This document shows positions 1,702 through 58,424 of a stretch of 64,000 bases of DNA, one piece after another. Made by a program: the position numbers and the translations under genes. The notes under the pieces are model-generated. The model did not search any database. It was given only the letters and a program-made list of their open reading frames with translations, and was not told the origin of the DNA. This DNA comes from Sphaerisporangium perillae (GTDB taxonomy: Bacteria > Actinomycetota > Actinomycetes > Streptosporangiales > Streptosporangiaceae): NCBI RefSeq assembly GCF_023276435.1, contig NZ_JALLPO010000025.1, positions 1 to 64,000 on the forward strand, given 5' to 3'. Within the stretch, counting starts at the first letter, position 1, and every line of letters starts with the position of its first letter.

Positions 1702-1920
1702 CTATCGACGACGCGAGTACCCTCTCGCAGAGGCGGCGTCCGCGATCAGACCTCGTCGAGCTGCAGGATCATGCCGCGGAAGGTCGCGTAGCGGGCCAAT
1801 CGCCAACGGGATGTGGACATCGTTGTAGTGACGTTTGAACGCGTCGACGTCGGAGGGGGTGTCGTACATCACGACGAATCGCGCCATCTGCTTGGCGGGC
1901 GGGTCCACGGTTGCGGTCAT
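1702..1920 (-). pseudogene. EthD/dimeric alpha-beta barrel gene, internally deleted and frameshifted
   Basis: From the ATG at 1920 the product starts like an EthD-type small protein: RFVVMYDTPSDVDAFKRHYN followed by DVHIPLA. Family members are about 100 residues with a further beta strand and a C-terminal VDEV-like end. Here the open frame changes character after HIPLAIGPL. In the shifted frame the same DNA reads YATFRGMILQLDEV and then TGA (near 1750), which is a plausible original C-terminus. The simplest reading is a gene that lost its middle and the frame. An intact short variant is possible but less likely. It lies 70 nt downstream of the quinone oxidoreductase, probably one transcript. 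Confidence 0.6.
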
Positions 1921-1989
1921 CTGTTTCGACTCCTGTAATGAGAACCTCCGGTGTGCGTTGTCACCGGCTCGGTACTAGAGGGGGTTTTC

Positions 1990-2982
1990 TCAGGGCAGCA
2001 GGGCCAGTTTGCCGATGGTGGCTCTGGTTTCCAGTTCCGCGAGCGTTTTCGGGCCGTCGGCCAGTTCGTACGCGGTGGGCTGGCCGGGGGTGAGCACGCC
2101 GGCGGCGATGAGCGCGGATAGCTCACCCATGACCTCGCCGAAGATCTGCGGCGCGGCCTGGATCAGCACGCCGATGTTGAGGCCGATGACATGGACCTGG
2201 TGCTTGTACACCAGGTCCCAGTTGGTGATCGCGGCTTCGCCGCCTGCGACGCCGTAGACGACGACACGGCCGGTGACCCGCTTGGCGGCGGCCAGGCTGG
2301 CGTCGAAGGTGGCGCCGCCTGCCGACTCCAGCACAAGGTCGGCGCCGGCGCCGCCGGTCAGCCGCAGCACCTCGGCGGCGAGGTCGCCGCCGAGGGAGTC
2401 CAGGATGTGGTCGGCTCCCAGTGCCAGCACTGTCTCGTGCTTGGCCGGCGAGGCGGCGGCGATGACCGTCGCGCCGTAGTGTTTGGCCATTGTGACCGCG
2501 GCCTGGCCGGTCGCGCCCGCCGCGGCGTGGATCAGCACGGTCTGCCCTGCGGTGATGCCGCCCAGAGGCTTGAGTGCGGCCAGCGCGGTGGGCCGGTTCA
2601 CGACCAGGCCGAGCGCCTGCTGCTCCGTCCAGCCGGGGGGCACTGGCATCGCCGCGGCCGCGGGCAGCACCATGTACTCGGCGAAAGCGCCGTTTCCGAC
2701 GCCGGTGACGCGGGTCCCCGGTTGCGGGCCGGTCACCGCCTCGCCCATCGCGACGACCTCACCGGCGGCCTCGAAACCGGCCAGGTACGGTGGCCGCGGG
2801 CCGTCCAGGAACGTGCCGTGAGCCTTCGAGATGTCGGCGAAGTTGACGCCGGCGGCGGTGACGCGGATTAGGACCTCGCCCTGGCCGGGGCTCGGCACTG
2901 GCACGTCGGTGATCAGGCGCATGTCCTGCGGGCCGTTGAGGGAAGTCTGCTGCAGCGCGCGCATGGTCGCGGGAATGCTCAT
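1990..2982 (-). CDS. Zinc-independent NADPH:quinone oxidoreductase (MDR superfamily)
   Basis: A 330-residue medium-chain reductase of the zeta-crystallin/QOR type. The N-terminal GroES-like half contains PGQGEVLIRVTAAGVNFADI and the G-E-A-G signature region GFEAAGEVVAMGEAVTG. The Rossmann half carries LIHAAAGATGQAAVTMAKHY, the AxxGxxG dinucleotide motif favouring NADPH. The catalytic zinc Cys/His of alcohol dehydrogenases are absent, so two-electron reduction of quinones or enones in the cytoplasm is expected. An AAAGG ribosome site precedes the ATG. It heads a minus-strand group with the EthD fragment and the ECF sigma factor. The natural substrate cannot be told from sequence. Confidence 0.85.
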   Translation of the reverse strand: MSIPATMRALQQTSLNGPQDMRLITDVPVPSPGQGEVLIRVTAAGVNFADISKAHGTFLDGPRPPYLAGFEAAGEVVAMGEAVTGPQPGTRVTGVGNGAFAEYMVLPAAAAMPVPPGWTEQQALGLVVNRPTALAALKPLGGITAGQTVLIHAAAGATGQAAVTMAKHYGATVIAAASPAKHETVLALGADHILDSLGGDLAAEVLRLTGGAGADLVLESAGGATFDASLAAAKRVTGRVVVYGVAGGEAAITNWDLVYKHQVHVIGLNIGVLIQAAPQIFGEVMGELSALIAAGVLTPGQPTAYELADGPKTLAELETRATIGKLALLP

Positions 2983-3010
2983 TGGCGATCAGCCTTTCTT
3001 TCTCGGCGTA

Positions 3011-3053
3011 CATGAGAGAGACCGGCCCGGCGCGCGGGCCGGTCTCTCTCATG
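3011..3053. terminator. Perfect 19-bp inverted repeat hairpin
   Basis: Left arm 3011-3029 (CATGAGAGAGACCGGCCCG) pairs perfectly with right arm 3035-3053 around a 5-nt loop. It lies 29 nt upstream of the oxidoreductase start. No T-run follows on either strand, so it is either a factor-dependent or actinomycete-type terminator, insulating the operon from the region at right, or an operator. Very few hairpins in the window are as long and perfect. Confidence 0.6.
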
Positions 3054-3455
3054 TAGACCCCGGCCACCACAAAAAGGAATCGGCCGCTCCCGAACGGCAC
3101 GGGGTCAGCTTCCGCCGAGGGTGAGTCGACGGCTATGTCGCCTGGGCAGGTCATCCGAACAGGACGGCCTGCGAGAAGCGCTGGCCAGATGGTTCGGTCC
3201 CGGGAAGTAAAGGGCCACCAGCCCAATTGAGGGTGTACCCGTACATCCTCTCGACCAGCGCGTCCCGAGGCACGAAATAGGGGGCGAGCGGTGGCGGACC
3301 TCTGATGGCGCGCTGGTTCCGGCAACTCGCGAGCAGATGAGCCGCGGACGTACCTGGGCGGGCCGCTATCGGTGACAGGGCGTCATGGTCCTTGACCGAC
3401 GAAATCATGAGGCGGACGATCCATGGGTCCTTTCCCATTCACAGAAAGGCACCAC
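3054..3455. other. Gene-poor stretch left of the repeat-peptide locus
   Basis: About 400 nt without a convincing gene. The minus strand holds an open frame of 95 codons (3151-3438) whose middle reads YFVPRDALVERMYGYTLNWA. It has no good ribosome site and no recognised family, and could be a remnant. A TTGACC at about 3392 could be a -35 box for the small gene at 3456, but a convincing -10 was not found. Confidence 0.3.
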
Positions 3456-3557
3456 ATGGGCGAGTTCCACGGGGACGACACCGAGCCCATCGCAGAGATC
3501 ATGATTCGGCTGTTGGATCGGAGCGAGACCACCGTCAGCAGTTCCGTCGGAAACTGA
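3456..3557 (+). CDS. 33-residue peptide gene with one HxD motif, upstream of the repeat-peptide operon
   Basis: A short frame with its own ribosome site (AGAAAGG, 7 nt before the ATG) encodes MGEFHGDDTEPIAEIMIRLL followed by DRSETTVSSSVGN, and is closed by TGA at 3555-3557. A strong hairpin begins only 9 nt later, so it looks like a complete small transcription unit. It contains F-H-G-D, one copy of the His-x-Asp tripeptide that dominates the protein encoded 430 nt downstream. It may be a second, single-core substrate of the same radical SAM enzyme, or an unrelated small protein. No family is recognised. The start, stop and hairpin are direct observations; the role is inference. Confidence 0.5.
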   Translation: MGEFHGDDTEPIAEIMIRLLDRSETTVSSSVGN

Positions 3558-3566
3558 CGCCGCAGC

Positions 3567-3594
3567 CGGGCGGGCCTCAGAAGGGGCCCGCCCG
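3567..3594 (+). terminator. Hairpin terminator after the 33-residue peptide gene
   Basis: Arms CGGGCGGGCC (3567-3576) and GGCCCGCCCG (3585-3594) pair perfectly over an 8-nt loop, 9 nt after the stop codon. The GC-rich stem without a U-tract is normal for actinomycete terminators. It separates the small peptide gene from the downstream operon. Confidence 0.65.
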
Positions 3595-3695
3595 CTCGTC
3601 CGCTCGCCGATCCAGGAGGAGCCTGCAAGACGGTCTGGTGCCGGTGGCACTTGACGCCCCGGACGACGGACGCCTCTCAACCCATCTGACGCCGG

Positions 3696-3788
3696 CTATT
3701 CCGGCTCAGGATCCAGATGGATCCGCAAGTGGCTCGTGTAAGCACCACCGCCATCGCGCTCGCCGACCGCATCCGGCGTGCCAGGCGT
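3696..3788 (-). pseudogene. Decayed 3' end of a cold-shock-domain gene
   Basis: Read on the minus strand this stretch gives TPGTPDAVGERDGGGAY then TSHLRIHLDPEPE and a TAG stop (3698-3696). The intact gene at 7602-7937 ends TPGTPDEVDDSLGGGAY, ESHLRIQFDPPSE, TAG. The two are clearly homologous over about 31 codons and at the DNA level, in the same orientation, but nothing resembling the cold-shock domain is found to the right of 3788. This is therefore a broken paralogue tail. Together with 7602-7937 it flanks the repeat-peptide operon as imperfect direct copies. Confidence 0.7.
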
Positions 3789-3988
3789 CAATTCCCTCGG
3801 CCACCGCTATGGATGGAACCCGCATGCGTGCCTCCATAACACTTCCAGCCTCCAGCGGTGCCGCTCAATCTGATTTCGATGGAGCCACCGCCGTGCTCGA
3901 TCAGCCGGATCGCTTTCTTACCGACCGTTGAGCGGTTACCGTCAAATCGACTTCATCCTGGGTTTGCGCCGAATCGAGGGAGTCGAAG

Positions 3989-4729
3989 TTGGCGGACGAA
4001 CCTTCGCGAGCGGGTTCCGCGCGATTCACGAAGCTCCGGTCCCTGGACGTGCCACGGCTCTCGGACCTCGGGCCGAACGACCCCCACATCGACTACGGCC
4101 ACGCCGACCTGCCCCACATCGACTCTCCGCATGTGGACGGCCATCACGCCGATGACCACTTCGATGTGGGGCATGTCGACAACCATGGCGACGACGGTCA
4201 TATGGACGACCACCTGGACGCCGGCCACAGCGATGTGTTCCACGTCGACTCGCACGACGATGTGCCTTACGGGGACGAGCACTACGACGGGGACCACGCT
4301 GACATCCCTCATGGGGACCTCAACCATGACGATGCCGGGCACGGCGACGAGGGGCACAGCGACGATCCGCCGTACAGCGACCAGGGATACAGCGACGACG
4401 GGTACATCGACGAGCCGTACATCGATGGGTACAGCGACGCGGCGCACGGTGACGACCCGTACAGCGATGCGTACAGCGACGGCGGCCACGGTGACGAGCC
4501 GTACAGCGACGGGCCGCACAACGATGCCGACGGTGTCGAAGGGGTCATCGGCCGGCTCGAGCGCTACATGGACGAACTCCAGGACATCCTGGTCGAGCGG
4601 GAGGTCCAAGTCGGCCAGGCGGTCGAGCGCCGGATGCGAGAGGCGGTGGCCGAGCTCGGCGCGCACCTCGCCGGCCACGAGGCCCGCCTCGCCGAACTCG
4701 AACGAAGGCTAGGCGGGACACAAGGATGA
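3989..4729 (+). CDS. Repeat precursor protein with 31 [His/Tyr]-x-Asp motifs (putative RiPP substrate)
   Basis: A 246-residue protein started by TTG, with GAGGGAG 6 nt upstream. Residues 1-32 look like a leader (ARFTKLRSLDVPRLSDLG). Residues 33-179 are an unbroken array of tripeptides His-x-Asp (22 copies) or Tyr-x-Asp (9 copies), spaced every 4, 5 or once 6 residues; the first 13 are all His, and Tyr dominates later. Separators are small or acidic residues (G, P, D, A, E, S). Residues 180-246 form a charged helical, probably coiled-coil tail (RLERYMDELQDILVEREVQV). The stop overlaps the start of a radical SAM/SPASM gene (ATGA). Radical SAM enzymes of the triceptide family make three-residue cyclophanes on aromatic-x-x(Asp/Asn) motifs, including Tyr and His types, so this protein is the likely substrate. 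An unmodified metal-binding HxD protein is the main alternative. Confidence 0.8.
   Translation: MADEPSRAGSARFTKLRSLDVPRLSDLGPNDPHIDYGHADLPHIDSPHVDGHHADDHFDVGHVDNHGDDGHMDDHLDAGHSDVFHVDSHDDVPYGDEHYDGDHADIPHGDLNHDDAGHGDEGHSDDPPYSDQGYSDDGYIDEPYIDGYSDAAHGDDPYSDAYSDGGHGDEPYSDGPHNDADGVEGVIGRLERYMDELQDILVEREVQVGQAVERRMREAVAELGAHLAGHEARLAELERRLGGTQG
4085..4525 (+). repeat. Coding repeat array of (H/Y)xD units
   Basis: This is the DNA encoding residues 33-179 of the precursor. Units are 12 or 15 nt (one of 18). The 3' half keeps near-identical DNA copies of TACAGCGAC (YSD), seen repeatedly between about 4371 and 4512, and of GACGAGCCGTACA before two of them. This suggests recent unit duplication, while the 5' half is more diverged. 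It is an in-frame protein repeat, not a CRISPR or non-coding satellite. Confidence 0.85.
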
Positions 4730-5940
4730 CAGTCGAAGTCCGGCCACTGGGCGTCAAGTGCAACCTGAGCTGCACCTACTGCTACCAGGACCCGCAACGC
4801 GCCGCGGGCAACATCACCCGGCACTACGACCTCGACCGCATGAAGGCCGGGCTGCTGGCGGAAGGCAGAAGGTTCTCGGTCTTCGGCGGAGAGCCGCTGA
4901 TGCTGCCGATCGACGATCTGACGGATCTGCTTTCATGGGGCTACGAGCGTTTCGGCGGCAGCGGCGTCCAGACGAACGGAACGCTGCTGACGGACGAGCA
5001 CATCACCCTCTTCAGGAGGTACAACGTCCACGTCGGCGTGTCCATCGACGGCCCCGATGAGCTGAACGACGTTCGCCGCCTCGGCAGCCTCACCCGTACG
5101 AGGCAAGCCACCGAACGGACGTTCAGCGCGATACATCGGCTCTGCGAAGCGGGCGTCCCCCCGAGCCTCATCATCACGCTGCACCGTGGCAACGCCTCCC
5201 CCGATCGCCTTCCCCGCCTGATCGACTGGGTTCGTGGCCTCGAGACCCTCGGTGTCCGGCATGCGCGACTGCACCTGCTCGAGACCGAGAGCGCGACGAT
5301 CAAGGCCGACCTGGGCCTTTCGGCCGAGGAGAACATCGCCGCGCTCAGAGCCTTCAGGGCGCTCGAGGCGGAGCTGACCGGCCTTCGGTTCGACCTCTTC
5401 ACGGACATGCGCGACCTTCTGCAGGGCCGTGACGATCGCACCACCTGCGTATGGAACGGCTGCGACCCCCTGACGACGCAGGCCGTACGCGGTGTCGAGG
5501 GAAACGGGCAAAGGACGAACTGCGGCCGGACGAACAAAGAGGGCATCGACTTCCAGAAGGCCGACCAACCCGGCTTCGAACGGTATCTCGCGCTGTACCA
5601 CACCCCTTACGAGGCGGGCGGCTGTAATGGATGCCGGTTCTTTCTCATGTGCAAGGGACAGTGCCCGGGAACGGCCATCGACCAGGATTGGCGCAACCGC
5701 ACAGATCATTGCGAGGTCTGGATGACGTTGTACGCCGACCTCGAGCGAGAACTCACCGACCAAGGGACAGCCGTGGTGTCCCGTAGCCGGGAGCGCCGCG
5801 AGATCGAGGGTGCGATGCTGGCGGCGTGGTCCAACGGCCGGCAGGTGACCATGACCACCCTCCTTTCACGCCGGCAGACGGCACGTCCCTGGCGCGAGCG
5901 CATGAACGACCTTCGCGCGCGCGTGGCCGACCGCACATGA
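4726..5940 (+). CDS. Radical SAM/SPASM peptide maturase
   Basis: A 404-residue enzyme. The N-terminal CX3CX2C (C12, C16, C19 in KCNLSCTYCYQ) binds the SAM [4Fe-4S] cluster. FGGEPLM is the GGE SAM-contacting motif, and GVQTNGTLLTDE and GVSIDGP follow as in peptide-modifying radical SAM proteins. The C-terminus has a SPASM domain: an early Cys pair around CVWNGC and TNCGRTNKEG, then C300, C303, C309, C313 (CNGCRFFLMCKGQC) and C329, enough for auxiliary clusters. There is no separate RRE gene; an RRE could be within this protein but is not evident. It starts inside the precursor stop (ATGA) and its stop overlaps the next gene in the same way, so the three genes are translationally coupled. The likely reaction is C-C crosslinking within HxD/YxD triads. 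Confidence 0.88.
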   Translation: MTVEVRPLGVKCNLSCTYCYQDPQRAAGNITRHYDLDRMKAGLLAEGRRFSVFGGEPLMLPIDDLTDLLSWGYERFGGSGVQTNGTLLTDEHITLFRRYNVHVGVSIDGPDELNDVRRLGSLTRTRQATERTFSAIHRLCEAGVPPSLIITLHRGNASPDRLPRLIDWVRGLETLGVRHARLHLLETESATIKADLGLSAEENIAALRAFRALEAELTGLRFDLFTDMRDLLQGRDDRTTCVWNGCDPLTTQAVRGVEGNGQRTNCGRTNKEGIDFQKADQPGFERYLALYHTPYEAGGCNGCRFFLMCKGQCPGTAIDQDWRNRTDHCEVWMTLYADLERELTDQGTAVVSRSRERREIEGAMLAAWSNGRQVTMTTLLSRRQTARPWRERMNDLRARVADRT

Positions 5941-7484
5941 TCCGGTCCGGTTACGAAGACCGCCTGCCGTTCGTCCTTCCCGACTTCACCCGGGTGGCCT
6001 GGGTCAGCGACCACGCGTCGGACGTCTGGGGGCCCAGGATTCGGCAGATCGCCGGCGCCTGGTCTCAGGTGGAGCGCCATTCCGTGCTCGAGGGTGTGCG
6101 CCCGTGCTTCCTCTCGCGGATGCCGGTCGAGGAGCTTCTCGCCAACGCCCCGGTCTGGGTGCGTCACGGGCTCGCGGTACTGCCCCTCAAGCAGGAAGGA
6201 ATGGTCAACGGTTATCGTGCCGCGCCGGTCCCGAGCGGCGCCGGCGACCGGGACGGCCTGCTCACCGTGGTCGGGCGTCCCGAGGACACGGCCCGATTCC
6301 ATGCCGCCTGGACGAGCCACGACCATGACGCGATGGGCCGGCTGCTCGGCTACCCGTCCTGCTGCCGGAGCTTCTTCGACGACATCTGGGTGAAGCGGCA
6401 GTGTGTCGACACCACCTGGCAGATGGCCGCCGCGGCATCGGGCCCGGACGTCCGGAGCGTACGCGTCGGCGGCCCTGTGGAGGCCAACATCCTGTGGCGG
6501 TGGATGGGCCTGCGCCTGGTCCCCCACCTGCCTTGCGATTTCGCGTGCGCGGCCACCGTCGAGTTCGGCAAGGCTCTTCGCCAGGTCGCCGACGCCCTCG
6601 GTGTGGGTGAGCAGATCGCGCTGCTCGATGAGATTCTCGACTGGCCTGTCCAGTGGACCGCCCTGCACGGGATCGCCGAGATAAAGACGCCCGTCTGCAA
6701 GATCGTCACCCGGACGGACGCCACGGCGACTCGTTACGCCGTCGAACGCGAAGGTGACCGTTATCCCGCCGAAGGGGCGGACGGGCTGGGCTTTCCGTAC
6801 CGGAAGCGTTTGAGGGTCGGCCCCATCCCCATCTCGATCGAACTCAAGAACCCGTCGTCGACACGCCCCCGCGCCTCGCCCGAAAACACCTCACCCGAAA
6901 CCGCACCGGCCGAAACCGCGTCGCCCGAAGGCGTCGGTGTCGATGCCCGCGCCGATGATGAATACCGGGACAACGGATTCCAGAGCCTGTCCGCAATGCG
7001 GCGCCTGCACGCCCCGATCGTCAAGGCCGCGATTTCCTGCCTTGGGGAAAGCGAAGGGAACATCGCCGACCTCGGATGCGGCAACGGCGCCCTGCTCCGA
7101 GCGATCGCCTCGCGTGCGCCGGGGCGCCTTCGCGGATTCGGCGTCGAAATCGATCCGGCGAAGGTCCGGCGATCGTTCGCGATTCTCGAGGGGACGGACA
7201 TCGACCTGGTCAGCGGCGACCTCTTCGAGGTCGACAGGTGGGCGGCAGGACGGCGGTACCTCCTCAGCCTGCTCGCCGCATCCCGCTTGACCGAGGTGTC
7301 ACCGGACGAAGCGAGGGCGTTCCACTCGAGGTTGAGCCGGTACTCGAAGAAACTGTTGCTCTACTCCTATCCCGATCGGCCACGGGACAGCGTCGAGCGG
7401 GCCTTGGCCGTCCTGAGGCTCCAAGCGCACCATGCCGACGAATCGGTGGCCGTCGTAGAACTCCACGACGAGACCAGCGGCTGA
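5937..7484 (+). CDS. Two-domain protein: Cys-rich domain plus class I SAM methyltransferase
   Basis: The start is the ATG at 5937 that overlaps the radical SAM stop; it gives 515 residues. Residues 1 to ~290 are a domain I do not firmly recognise, with GYPSCCRSFF (C142, C143), C156 and HLPCDFAC (C200, C204). The pattern recalls uncharacterised DUF483-like proteins and may bind a metal. A Pro/Glu/Ser/Thr linker follows (about 300-345; ENTSPETAPAETASPEG). Residues ~355-515 are a Rossmann methyltransferase with motif I IADLGCGNG (376-384), an acidic residue ending the second strand (GVEIDPAK) and DLVSGDLFEV. In this operon it is a good candidate for methylating or otherwise tailoring the repeat protein. 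No protease or exporter gene is adjacent. Confidence 0.75.
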   Translation: MIRSGYEDRLPFVLPDFTRVAWVSDHASDVWGPRIRQIAGAWSQVERHSVLEGVRPCFLSRMPVEELLANAPVWVRHGLAVLPLKQEGMVNGYRAAPVPSGAGDRDGLLTVVGRPEDTARFHAAWTSHDHDAMGRLLGYPSCCRSFFDDIWVKRQCVDTTWQMAAAASGPDVRSVRVGGPVEANILWRWMGLRLVPHLPCDFACAATVEFGKALRQVADALGVGEQIALLDEILDWPVQWTALHGIAEIKTPVCKIVTRTDATATRYAVEREGDRYPAEGADGLGFPYRKRLRVGPIPISIELKNPSSTRPRASPENTSPETAPAETASPEGVGVDARADDEYRDNGFQSLSAMRRLHAPIVKAAISCLGESEGNIADLGCGNGALLRAIASRAPGRLRGFGVEIDPAKVRRSFAILEGTDIDLVSGDLFEVDRWAAGRRYLLSLLAASRLTEVSPDEARAFHSRLSRYSKKLLLYSYPDRPRDSVERALAVLRLQAHHADESVAVVELHDETSG

Positions 7485-51428: not shown

Positions 51429-55609
<4,181 letters not shown>

Positions 55610-56270: not shown

Positions 56271-58424
56271 TCAGCGGCGGGCGCGCTCCAGGGCGTCCCA
56301 GAAGCCGCGGCGCAGGGCGTGGCGCACCTCGTCGTGGAGCAGGAAGTCGATGGGCAGCGAGGAGCCCTGGAGGAGGCGGGCCTCGAGGTCGGAGGGCATG
56401 CGCGGCTTGCGGGCGAGCACGGCCTCGAGCCAGAGGGCGGGAGCGTCCCGCGCGACGGACTCACCGAAGTCGTGGCCCTCCTTGTGCGCGGCCTTCACCG
56501 CGTCGGCCAGCGTGGTGGTGCCCGGCGTGCCGGCGAGCGAGGGCATCGGAGCCGGCTGGGGACCGGTGTAGGGGCCGAGCTGAGGCCCGGGATAGGCCGG
56601 CTGGCCGCCGGAGCCTCCCATGTTGTACTGGCCCGGGACGGACTGCGGGGGCACCGGTGCCGCCATGGGGGCCGACGGTGGAGCCTGAGGAGGAGACTGC
56701 CGCGACTCGGAGGCGTAGCCGGAGTAGCCGGCGGGGAGCGCGGGCGGCGACGAGCGCTGCGGGGCCGGCGGCGGCGAGCCGGAGCCGTGCGCGCCCGACC
56801 CCTGGGAGCCGGCGCTGTGGGAACCGGTCGCGTGAGCGCCCCCGGCATGGGAGCCGGACCCGTGGGAGCCCGACGCCAGACCACTCGACCTCGCAGAGCC
56901 GGACAGGCCGGATGCGAGACCGCTGGAACCGTGCGAACTCGCCCCGAGGCCGCCGGAGCCGTGCGAGGCGGACCCGAGGTCGCCGGAGGTCGAAGGGCCG
57001 GCGGCCGGACCGCCGCCCGTCCTCGCGGTGGCGGACCCGGGACCGCCGGAGCCGTGCGAGGCAGACTCGAGACCACCGGCCCCCGAGGAGGCCGGAGAGG
57101 CACCGCTGGGCCCATGTGAGCCAGACCCGAGGGCCCTGCGCGCCTGCATGCGCGAGTCGCCCGCCTGCGCGGCGGACGCGTGCGCCTCGGAGCCGATCGA
57201 GGTGGACCCGAGCGAGCTCGACCCGAGGGTGCCCGCTCCGGCGGACGATCCCTGGAACTCCGACCCCAGGCCTGCTCCAGCGGACGACCCCTGGAACTCC
57301 GGCCCGTGGGAACCCTGCCCTGCCGAGGAGCCGTGCGAGGCGGAGCTGAACGAGCCCTGCCCGGTGGAGGACCCCTGGTGATCACGGCCGCTGGAAGACC
57401 CCTGGTAGTCCGAGCCGAGAGAGCCGTGCCCGGTGGAGGTCCCTTGGTAGTCCTGGTCGAGGGAGTCCTGCCCGGCGGAGGACCCTTGGTAGTCGGAGCC
57501 GGAGGAACCCTCCCCGGCCGGGGACCGCTGGTAGCCGGAGCCGAGTGGACCTTGACCGGGCGGGGGCGACTGGTAGTCGGAGTCGAGAGGGCCCTGCGCG
57601 GTCTGGGAGTCGCGAGACGCGGACTCCAGGGGGCTCTGCCCGTGGCCGGCGGCCGCCTGGGAAGGCTCGCGCGACGCGGAGCCGTGCGAACCGGCCCCCT
57701 GTGACAGGGGACCATGGGAGCCGGCGCCGTAGGCGGAGGGCGCGGGGGACGCCGGGGCTCCCGCCGAGGAGGCCGAGCGGCCACTGCTGTGGCCGTGACC
57801 CTCGCGGGACCGGCCGTTGGTGACCGGCTGCGGCAGGTGGTGCCCGTTTCCGGAGGCGGACCCGTTGCCGGAGCCGCCTGCCACGTTGCCGGTCACCAGG
57901 TTGACGTAGGGCCGCAGGTGGCCGCTGCCGATCTCGATCAGGTCGTCGCACTCCTGCTGGAGCGTGCGGGACACCGCCCAGCTGCCCTCGGCCGCGATGT
58001 GGATGACGGTGACGCGGATGCCGAGATCCTGGGCGTCGCTCACGACCTGGGCCAGGTCTTCGTCGCCGCTCACCACCACGGCGTCGCAGATGGCGTTGTT
58101 GCGGGCCAGGGTCATCAGGTCACGGTGGACCTGGGCGTCCACGCCTTCCCTGCGGCCGGGCCGGATGCGGGCCAGGCGCAGCTTGAGGCCGGGGATGTCG
58201 GCGAGCGCGTCGTGTTCGGGGGTGCGCCTGCCCTCGACCGTCGCCTCGTACCAATAGCAGCGCAGGAGCGGGAGGTCGGTGCGCTCGCGGGAAAGCGTTG
58301 ACAGCAGCTGGAGCAGGCCGGGATAGTCCCACGCGACGGCCTCGCGATGGCGGGTCCCATGCACGGCCATCGCGCCGTCCGCCAGCAGATAGCCGGCGTC
58401 CACGAACAGCGCGCAGCGATCCAC
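56271..58424 (-). CDS. NYN-domain (PIN-like) protein with long Ser/Gly repeat region
   Basis: 717 residues, GTG start. Residues 1-175 are an NYN ribonuclease-like domain: CALFVDAGYLL (D9), LRCYWYEATVEG, DAQVHRDLMTLARNN, AVVVSGDEDLAQVV, with the three or four Asp that bind Mg. Residues ~185-620 are low complexity, built from units such as (S/G)DYQGSSAGQ, SHGSSG and SQGSGAHGSG, rich in Ser, Gly, Gln, His. Residues ~640-717 are a helical domain (LADAVKAAHKEGHDFGESVA; LPIDFLLHDEVRHALRRGFW) conserved in actinobacterial NYN proteins. It probably cleaves or binds RNA; the middle part could drive condensation. Confidence 0.88.
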   Translation of the reverse strand: MDRCALFVDAGYLLADGAMAVHGTRHREAVAWDYPGLLQLLSTLSRERTDLPLLRCYWYEATVEGRRTPEHDALADIPGLKLRLARIRPGRREGVDAQVHRDLMTLARNNAICDAVVVSGDEDLAQVVSDAQDLGIRVTVIHIAAEGSWAVSRTLQQECDDLIEIGSGHLRPYVNLVTGNVAGGSGNGSASGNGHHLPQPVTNGRSREGHGHSSGRSASSAGAPASPAPSAYGAGSHGPLSQGAGSHGSASREPSQAAAGHGQSPLESASRDSQTAQGPLDSDYQSPPPGQGPLGSGYQRSPAGEGSSGSDYQGSSAGQDSLDQDYQGTSTGHGSLGSDYQGSSSGRDHQGSSTGQGSFSSASHGSSAGQGSHGPEFQGSSAGAGLGSEFQGSSAGAGTLGSSSLGSTSIGSEAHASAAQAGDSRMQARRALGSGSHGPSGASPASSGAGGLESASHGSGGPGSATARTGGGPAAGPSTSGDLGSASHGSGGLGASSHGSSGLASGLSGSARSSGLASGSHGSGSHAGGAHATGSHSAGSQGSGAHGSGSPPPAPQRSSPPALPAGYSGYASESRQSPPQAPPSAPMAAPVPPQSVPGQYNMGGSGGQPAYPGPQLGPYTGPQPAPMPSLAGTPGTTTLADAVKAAHKEGHDFGESVARDAPALWLEAVLARKPRMPSDLEARLLQGSSLPIDFLLHDEVRHALRRGFWDALERARR

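Follow-up and report, generated by a model that had tools for sequence, protein, structure and literature searches.

A predicted radical SAM/SPASM-crosslinked array of 31 ring-x-Asp triads in Sphaerisporangium perillae, with relatives in bacteria and phages

Introduction

What might a cell make of a protein in which His or Tyr is followed two residues later by Asp, 31 times in succession? A stretch of 64,000 nucleotides from the actinomycete Sphaerisporangium perillae (assembly GCF_023276435.1, contig NZ_JALLPO010000025.1, positions 1 to 64,000; the whole stretch is hereafter the window) encodes such a protein, here called the array protein, directly ahead of genes for a radical S-adenosylmethionine (rSAM) enzyme with a SPASM region and for a partner protein with a DUF483-like and a methyltransferase domain. 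An original prediction, made from the sequence alone, saw in the array protein a candidate giant substrate of triceptide-like kind. Triceptide enzymes (YxdB, HaaB, YhhB, OscB, XncB) are rSAM/SPASM proteins found beside substrates with ring-x-X3 motifs; according to a review (PMC11002830), YxdB joins Tyr C3 to Asp Cβ, HaaB joins His C2 to Ala Cβ, and YhhB bonds Tyr and His to Arg Cβ. By analogy, we put at about 65% the probability that the window's rSAM enzyme crosslinks each triad of the array into a stiff ladder.

Results

The array protein is a gap-free run of triads

A recount of the array protein agreed with the original prediction: residues 33–179 hold 31 consecutive (H/Y)xD triads, 22 HxD and 9 YxD, which follow one another without interruption at a spacing of 4, 5 or 6 residues from start to start, with linkers of 1–3 residues. 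A further triad, YMD at residue 193, stands outside this core and would be the 32nd. Within the core, Asp occupies position +2 of 31 of the 34 His and Tyr residues and positions +1, +3 and +4 of only 3, 8 and 3; 9 of the 11 core Tyr head triads, and the middle residues are of 11 different kinds. Shuffling the core residues 10,000 times yielded a mean of 9.2 and a maximum of 18 triads, versus the 31 found. The window has 352 stop-to-stop open reading frames (ORFs) that reach 100 codons or more, and none but the array ORF contains at least six triads in a run. Its third-position GC content, 0.83, is the same as that of both neighbouring genes and is consistent with this being the coding frame; from the preceding in-frame stop, at 3929, up to the array there is no alternative start codon.

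The array protein has no Pfam family above cut-off and no NCBIfam or PHROG match, a homologue search returned none at E ≤ 0.001, comparison with 20 relatives gave nothing under E 0.04, and no relative was found by sequence in viral contigs. The coiled coil that had been proposed for its C-terminal segment was not borne out, the hydrophobic moment at the 3.5-residue heptad period being no higher than in shuffles (4519 of 5000 were equally high).

The adjacent enzyme belongs with SPASM proteins

The window rSAM matches Pfam PF04055 (3.1e-16, 60.4 bits, cut-off 29.5). The eight Cys residues of its SPASM region are invariant across 50 aligned relatives, and its CxxCx5Cx3C motif aligns to that of anSME in a weak second stretch of 13 bits. 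A predicted model of a relative adopts the fold of solved SPASM enzymes, and on this modelling the window enzyme resembles protein- and peptide-modifying members of that group. With each of the named cyclophane-maturase models listed for it the enzyme scored below the cut-off, the best being AmcB (77.7 bits versus 425), with YhhB at 61.2/445, GrrM/OscB at 55.1/310, XyeB at 47.9/450 and FxsB at 34.2/370. We therefore rejected these families as its home and describe it as putatively triceptide-maturase-like; the original prediction is partly supported.

The enzyme and its DUF483-like partner are widespread and patchy in bacteria

A protein search with 7999 scorable candidates gave 2522 relatives of the window rSAM at E ≤ 0.001. 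Scanning genomes placed it at 62 named loci in at least 12 bacterial phyla, assigned from record titles and tree labels: Acidobacteriota, Actinomycetota, Armatimonadota, Bacillota, Bacteroidota, Chloroflexota, Cyanobacteriota, Myxococcota, Nitrospinota, Planctomycetota, Pseudomonadota and Verrucomicrobiota. Its spread is patchy: it occurs in 2 of 341 genomes of the same family, the window's included (E ≤ 1e-30), and in 1 of 396 genomes of a phylum sample, the window's own (E ≤ 1e-40). The second family genome (G217), from the same genus, encodes an rSAM identical to a Sphaerisporangium krabiense protein on record, and an array protein with 9 HxD followed by a helix-like tail. From 117 possible rSAM rows, 114 were long enough and 107 distinct; in the tree of these 107 sequences bacteria and viruses are divided by a weak branch (support 73), and the window falls on the bacterial side.

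A DUF483-like domain accompanies the enzyme at 60 of the 62 named loci. At 57 it overlaps the rSAM, is fused to it or lies within about 85 nt (the match being extrapolated), at L050, L056 and L058 it is 277–789 nt away, and at 19 of the 62 both stand within a single ORF. In three partners (L008, 3121–5004; L022, 9214–11001; L058, 9450–11330), DUF364, annotated as putative heavy-metal chelation, takes the place of the methyltransferase.

Arrays accompany the enzyme in bacteria and in phages

An array was defined as a separate ORF with at least four spaced triads and was counted at 63 bacterial loci (the 62 named ones and L066) and 53 viral loci (50 IMG/VR contigs and three phage records); these counts cover L004–L066 and L075–L127 plus the window, exclude L001–L003, L067–L074 and L128 onward, and keep near-identical viral loci. 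Arrays were present at 45 of the 63 bacterial loci and at 46 of the 53 viral ones; at 27 and 45 of them, respectively, the array has at least eight triads. The original prediction, in which the overlapping rSAM gene itself is not named, had proposed looking for rSAM genes next to similar repeat proteins, and this pairing is found both in the window, as a 4-nt overlap, and across these loci. The "protein-scale" size that it suggested likewise fits, with relatives carrying 72, 93 and up to 101 HxD per chain (53 in L018 and 41 in L021).

Many bacterial arrays stand at the ends of ORFs of 900–2667 codons. Proteins of L017, L027, L035, L048, L062 and L065 have 900–1500 residues of which the first part consists of strand-rich repeats (by eye) and the C-terminus is an HxD array; the five scanned against Pfam (all except L062) gave no family. 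Across eight large bacterial array proteins, seven had no Pfam match and Nannocystis L040 matched beta/gamma-crystallin and I36, and seven had no NCBIfam match and L017 a weak one to ribosomal S11. The rSAM ORF itself bears at least four triads at 33 of the 53 viral loci and at one of the 63 bacterial loci, and HGD repeats lie near the C-termini of rSAMs P0035, P0045 and P0110. At L007, HxD arrays lie in the C-terminal part of both the rSAM (1727–3274) and its DUF483-methyltransferase partner (3305–5311), as though these enzymes bore substrate tails.

For residue counts, arrays on rSAM ORFs were left out. In 120 distinct arrays of at least six triads, Asp follows at +2 of 2224 of 2310 His (the remainder including Asn 8, Gln 3 and Glu 2), a figure of 96–97% that is not an independent estimate because the arrays were picked by their HxD motif. 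A fairer background comes from arrays redefined by HxD alone (121 arrays, 20.5% Asp), which avoids selection on Tyr: here the residue at +2 is Asp for 97% of His, for 16% of the 187 Tyr, 16.5% of the 170 Phe and 14.5% of the 55 Trp, versus 1–4% for the remaining residue types listed. In the linkers, 55 of 316 Tyr, Phe and Trp (17%) begin an extra xD triad, versus 28 of 4771 residues (0.6%) of 13 other types; for Phe alone the count is 27 of 131. A ring at i thus goes with Asp at i+2, Phe included.

Phage arrays lie among tail genes

Among 50,697 phage records the rSAM was found only in the Thermus phages phiLo, Cumys and phiMa (E ≤ 1e-20), and a DUF483-like protein is also encoded at 49 of the 53 viral loci. 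Array queries matched the records of these three phages only (two each with L093 and L098, three with Cumys_13), a search in which the low-complexity filter of BLAST may conceal other phage arrays. Cumys and phiMa are close kin, at 96% average nucleotide identity (PMC11437467). The Cumys genes run from baseplate genes through tail collar fibre, a hypothetical gene and array to rSAM and DUF483; the array protein, Cumys_13, has 54 HxD in 343 residues, with 54 of 54 His inside an HxD. In phiLo (178 kb; L126/L128) two adjacent arrays, phiLo_136 and phiLo_137, have 101 HxD in 782 residues and 72 in 474; three hypothetical genes separate them from a pair of baseplate wedge genes upstream, and the rSAM and DUF483-like genes are about 3–6 kb away on the opposite strand. 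Tail genes thus stand beside arrays in both named phage lineages.

Upstream regions were scanned with PHROGs at 14 of the 53 viral loci, all IMG/VR contigs, and 8 of the 14 gave a tail-category match: L098 (tape measure, 2.6e-18), L093, L100, L090 (tail protein and host specificity), L085 (tail fibre, 1.1e-15, outranked by a "structural protein" match) and, weakly, L122, L117 and L120. L098 also has an endolysin-like gene downstream. The array protein of L081 carries a Laminin_G_3 domain; PHROG scans of the array proteins themselves gave no match for six other phage array proteins and that of L122, and one weak match for that of L081.

The HxD runs seen without the enzyme are short and monotonous

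The original prediction had also turned to repeat proteins that lack an rSAM neighbour. A search for them across the 341 genomes of the window's family, an insensitive one that missed the arrays of the window and of G217, returned weak matches from 15. Five of six weak-match loci inspected have HxD runs of 4–8, and L131 has none. Such runs exist, and those seen are short and of low variety, each using just one or two different middle residues versus 11 in the window; the run of L133 also has R in place of H and E in place of D. Third-position GC is 0.57 at L130, 0.76 at L132 and 0.90–0.91 at L133, L134 and L135, by which some of these runs may be coding.

Discussion

An array probably crosslinked triad by triad

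The combination of a SPASM enzyme with a substrate in which Asp comes two residues after a ring agrees with three-residue cyclophane formation. On this ground we infer that the enzyme would join the His or Tyr ring to the β-carbon of Asp, closing the triads serially with a predicted loss of 2 Da each (2.016 Da per step, or up to 62.5 Da from the calculated 26,879 Da of the untagged array protein). The three-residue rings would turn a flexible chain into a ladder that is stiff and resists proteases, and since 31 to about 100 closed rings would be spaced by linkers of 1–3 residues, the product would be a rod. It would probably be kept at full length as a structural part, and not cut to a small peptide. 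After the triad core 67 of the 246 residues remain and no protease is among the three genes, an arrangement in which cutting may still occur. The phage setting suggests a fibre shaft, so that the phage product would be a tail-fibre part; the helix-like tail of the Sphaerisporangium proteins suggests a smaller structural rod, which could be intracellular or at the surface, with a helical end. We would guess that the DUF483-like partner, which is seldom missing and in many cases forms one protein with the rSAM, brings in the substrate or carries out a second modification, and that the methyltransferase domain modifies closed triads or the array.

Several observations count against crosslinking by this enzyme. 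Firstly, there are its scores below every named cut-off listed, and the model of its relative, with 19–20% identity, is as close to anSME (4k38) as to ChlB (9gmc). Secondly, 18 of the 63 bacterial loci have no array as defined; among them L012, L028, L037 and L063 have sparser or other arrays (in L063 a mostly Tyr array 2 kb upstream of the rSAM, with one ORF between), L020 and L034 lie at contig ends, and in Pseudoalteromonas, Paraburkholderia and others the rSAM flanks examined hold none. Thirdly, most Tyr, Phe and Trp in arrays (359 of 454, more than 75%) head no triad, the near-constant Asp after His carries the selection described above, and the HGD tail of the L007 rSAM is disordered in AlphaFold (pLDDT below 50). 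Lastly, the genomes with short runs lack an rSAM of the window type (E ≤ 1e-30), and 6 of the 14 scanned viral contigs have no upstream tail match: L075, L083, L088 and L105 gave no match, L099 a head protein and L107 unknown families. Against these stands the bias for ring heads over a fair background, which raises the odds of crosslinking and lowers those of the first two alternatives below.

Alternative explanations

The enzyme might modify the array in some other way. Dynobactin has a C–N crosslink between a His nitrogen and Asp; anSME forms formylglycine, matures sulfatases and is not known to make a crosslink. The DynA, DarW and anSME models all match the window rSAM, and the equal likeness of its relative to anSME and ChlB would suit a C–N bond from a His nitrogen to Asp, epimerisation, or Asp oxidation or decarboxylation. 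Tyr and Phe heads suit a bond to ring carbon better than one to a His nitrogen, and the known Tyr-x-Asp chemistry is of the C3–Cβ kind (PMC11002830). We consider such another reaction unlikely, and still the alternative to be taken most seriously.

It is less likely again, and in our judgement improbable, that the array stays unmodified as a metal-binding polymer while the rSAM, the DUF483-like protein and the methyltransferase act elsewhere or make a cofactor. Iron is bound by HxH motifs at phage fibre tips, His and Asp are common ligands, and the array protein has an isoelectric point of 4.35; the DUF364 domain of three partners also favours this explanation over crosslinking. A metal site would tolerate Glu, which is nearly absent at +2 (2 of 2310), whereas Phe, no metal ligand, heads triads far more often than the 13 non-ring types (27 of 131 versus 28 of 4771); the register is exactly i, i+2, and phage arrays and rSAM were found only together.

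A role of the module in DNA modification was put forward in section 3.4 of the Cumys paper, a section that does not mention the array, and homologues near deazapurine-DNA genes in some cyanobacteria, noted in the same paper, speak for it (PMC11437467). The gene preceding the rSAM in Cumys encodes the 54-HxD array protein, presumably the module's other protein of unknown function; arrays go with the rSAM at most bacterial and viral loci, and the enzyme is like protein- and peptide-modifying SPASM enzymes. On this co-occurrence and likeness we rejected DNA modification, which seems very improbable.

That the array is a neutral DNA repeat expansion reading HxD by chance is scarcely credible and was rejected on the shuffles and third-position GC, for although Tandem Repeats Finder reports 15- and 42-bp periods at 4344–4524 and short HxD runs occur elsewhere, its copies are only 65–80% alike, rSAM-less runs repeat one or two middle residues, unlike the window, and the constancy of H/Y and D amid 11 middle residues and numerous linkers argues for selection on the triad.

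Relation to known systems

Compared with triceptide systems, the window has 31 triads and its relatives up to 101 HxD, a long C-terminal segment follows the array, a DUF483-like partner is the rule, no small excised core is visible and the enzyme scores below the named maturase cut-offs listed for it. Another close system is the rSAM/DUF483 module of Cumys and phiMa, which has been described together with DUF483 fusions and prophage copies (PMC11437467). Its rSAM is homologous to that of the window (49% identity over 390 columns, 4e-139), as is its DUF483-domain protein (34% over 307 columns, 2e-53; Cumys_11 itself has no match to Pfam DUF483 at 0.01), and an HxD array precedes the rSAM in both; unlike the window, it lies in a tail-gene setting and its partner has no methyltransferase. 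TvgB modifies a repeated motif several times per chain (PMC9062424), as is predicted here; there the motif is TVGG, the product cyclopropylglycine in place of a ring-to-Asp bond, and the substrate a peptide. We recognised no description of HxD arrays with rSAM in the searchable literature, which was mostly non-subscription and did not extend to the main triceptide papers (JACS 2022, ACS Chem Biol 2022), which may mention HxD systems.

Crosslinking along whole chains would point to a new class of structural proteins, end-to-end stapled polycyclophane rods that form tail-fibre shafts in phages and rods in a dozen bacterial phyla, often at the ends of giant proteins; this wider proposal is tentative, and we hold it at somewhat less than even odds. 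If true, these would be the largest enzyme-made cyclophane polymers and the first radical-SAM-matured virion part, extending rSAM crosslinking beyond small peptide natural products to load-bearing protein rods. It would also explain the phage rSAM/DUF483 module, assign DUF483 a function and provide a genetically encoded means to stiffen long polypeptides.

Organisation of the locus

Table 1. Features of the array locus in the window
Feature	Position	Strand	Remarks
Shine-Dalgarno-like GGGAG	3978..3982	+	6 nt upstream of the TTG start; read from sequence
Array protein, predicted substrate, 246 residues	3989..4729	+	ORF reading; TTG start
N-terminal segment, residues 1–32	3989..4084	+	putatively leader-like
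Triad core, residues 33–179	4085..4525	+	31 consecutive (H/Y)xD triads: 22 HxD, 9 YxD
C-terminal segment, residues 180–246	4526..4726	+	charged; helix-like by eye
Radical SAM/SPASM enzyme, 404 residues	4726..5940	+	start overlaps array stop via ATGA (4 nt)
CNLSCTYC, radical SAM [4Fe-4S] motif	4759..4782	+	C12, C16, C19; columns at least 90% conserved
SPASM region	5446..5712	+	C241, C246, C266, C300, C303, C309, C313, C329
Partner protein, 515 residues	5937..7484	+	start overlaps rSAM stop (ATGA)
DUF483-like domain, residues ~1–290	5937..6806	+	homologous to Cumys_11; predicted fold confident
Methyltransferase domain, residues 337–515	6945..7481	+	

The Pfam DUF483 model scores the window partner at 0.059, below its cut-off, and matches 9 of 38 partner relatives at E ≤ 0.01; Methyltransf_25 matches 11 of 38 aligned partner members. 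The matches listed by Foldseek for the partner model are methyltransferases, and those listed by VIA span residues ~330–510.

About 430 nt upstream of the array gene lies a 33-residue ORF, MGEFHGDDTEPIAEIMIRLLDRSETTVSSSVGN (3456–3557, +), behind AAAGG and with one HGD; no relative of it was found in 15 related genomes. Elsewhere in the window, a 276-bp tandem unit recurs in 6.1 copies with 78% matches at 51868–53539, and tandem repeats of 15 to 42 bp cluster at 56776–57602.
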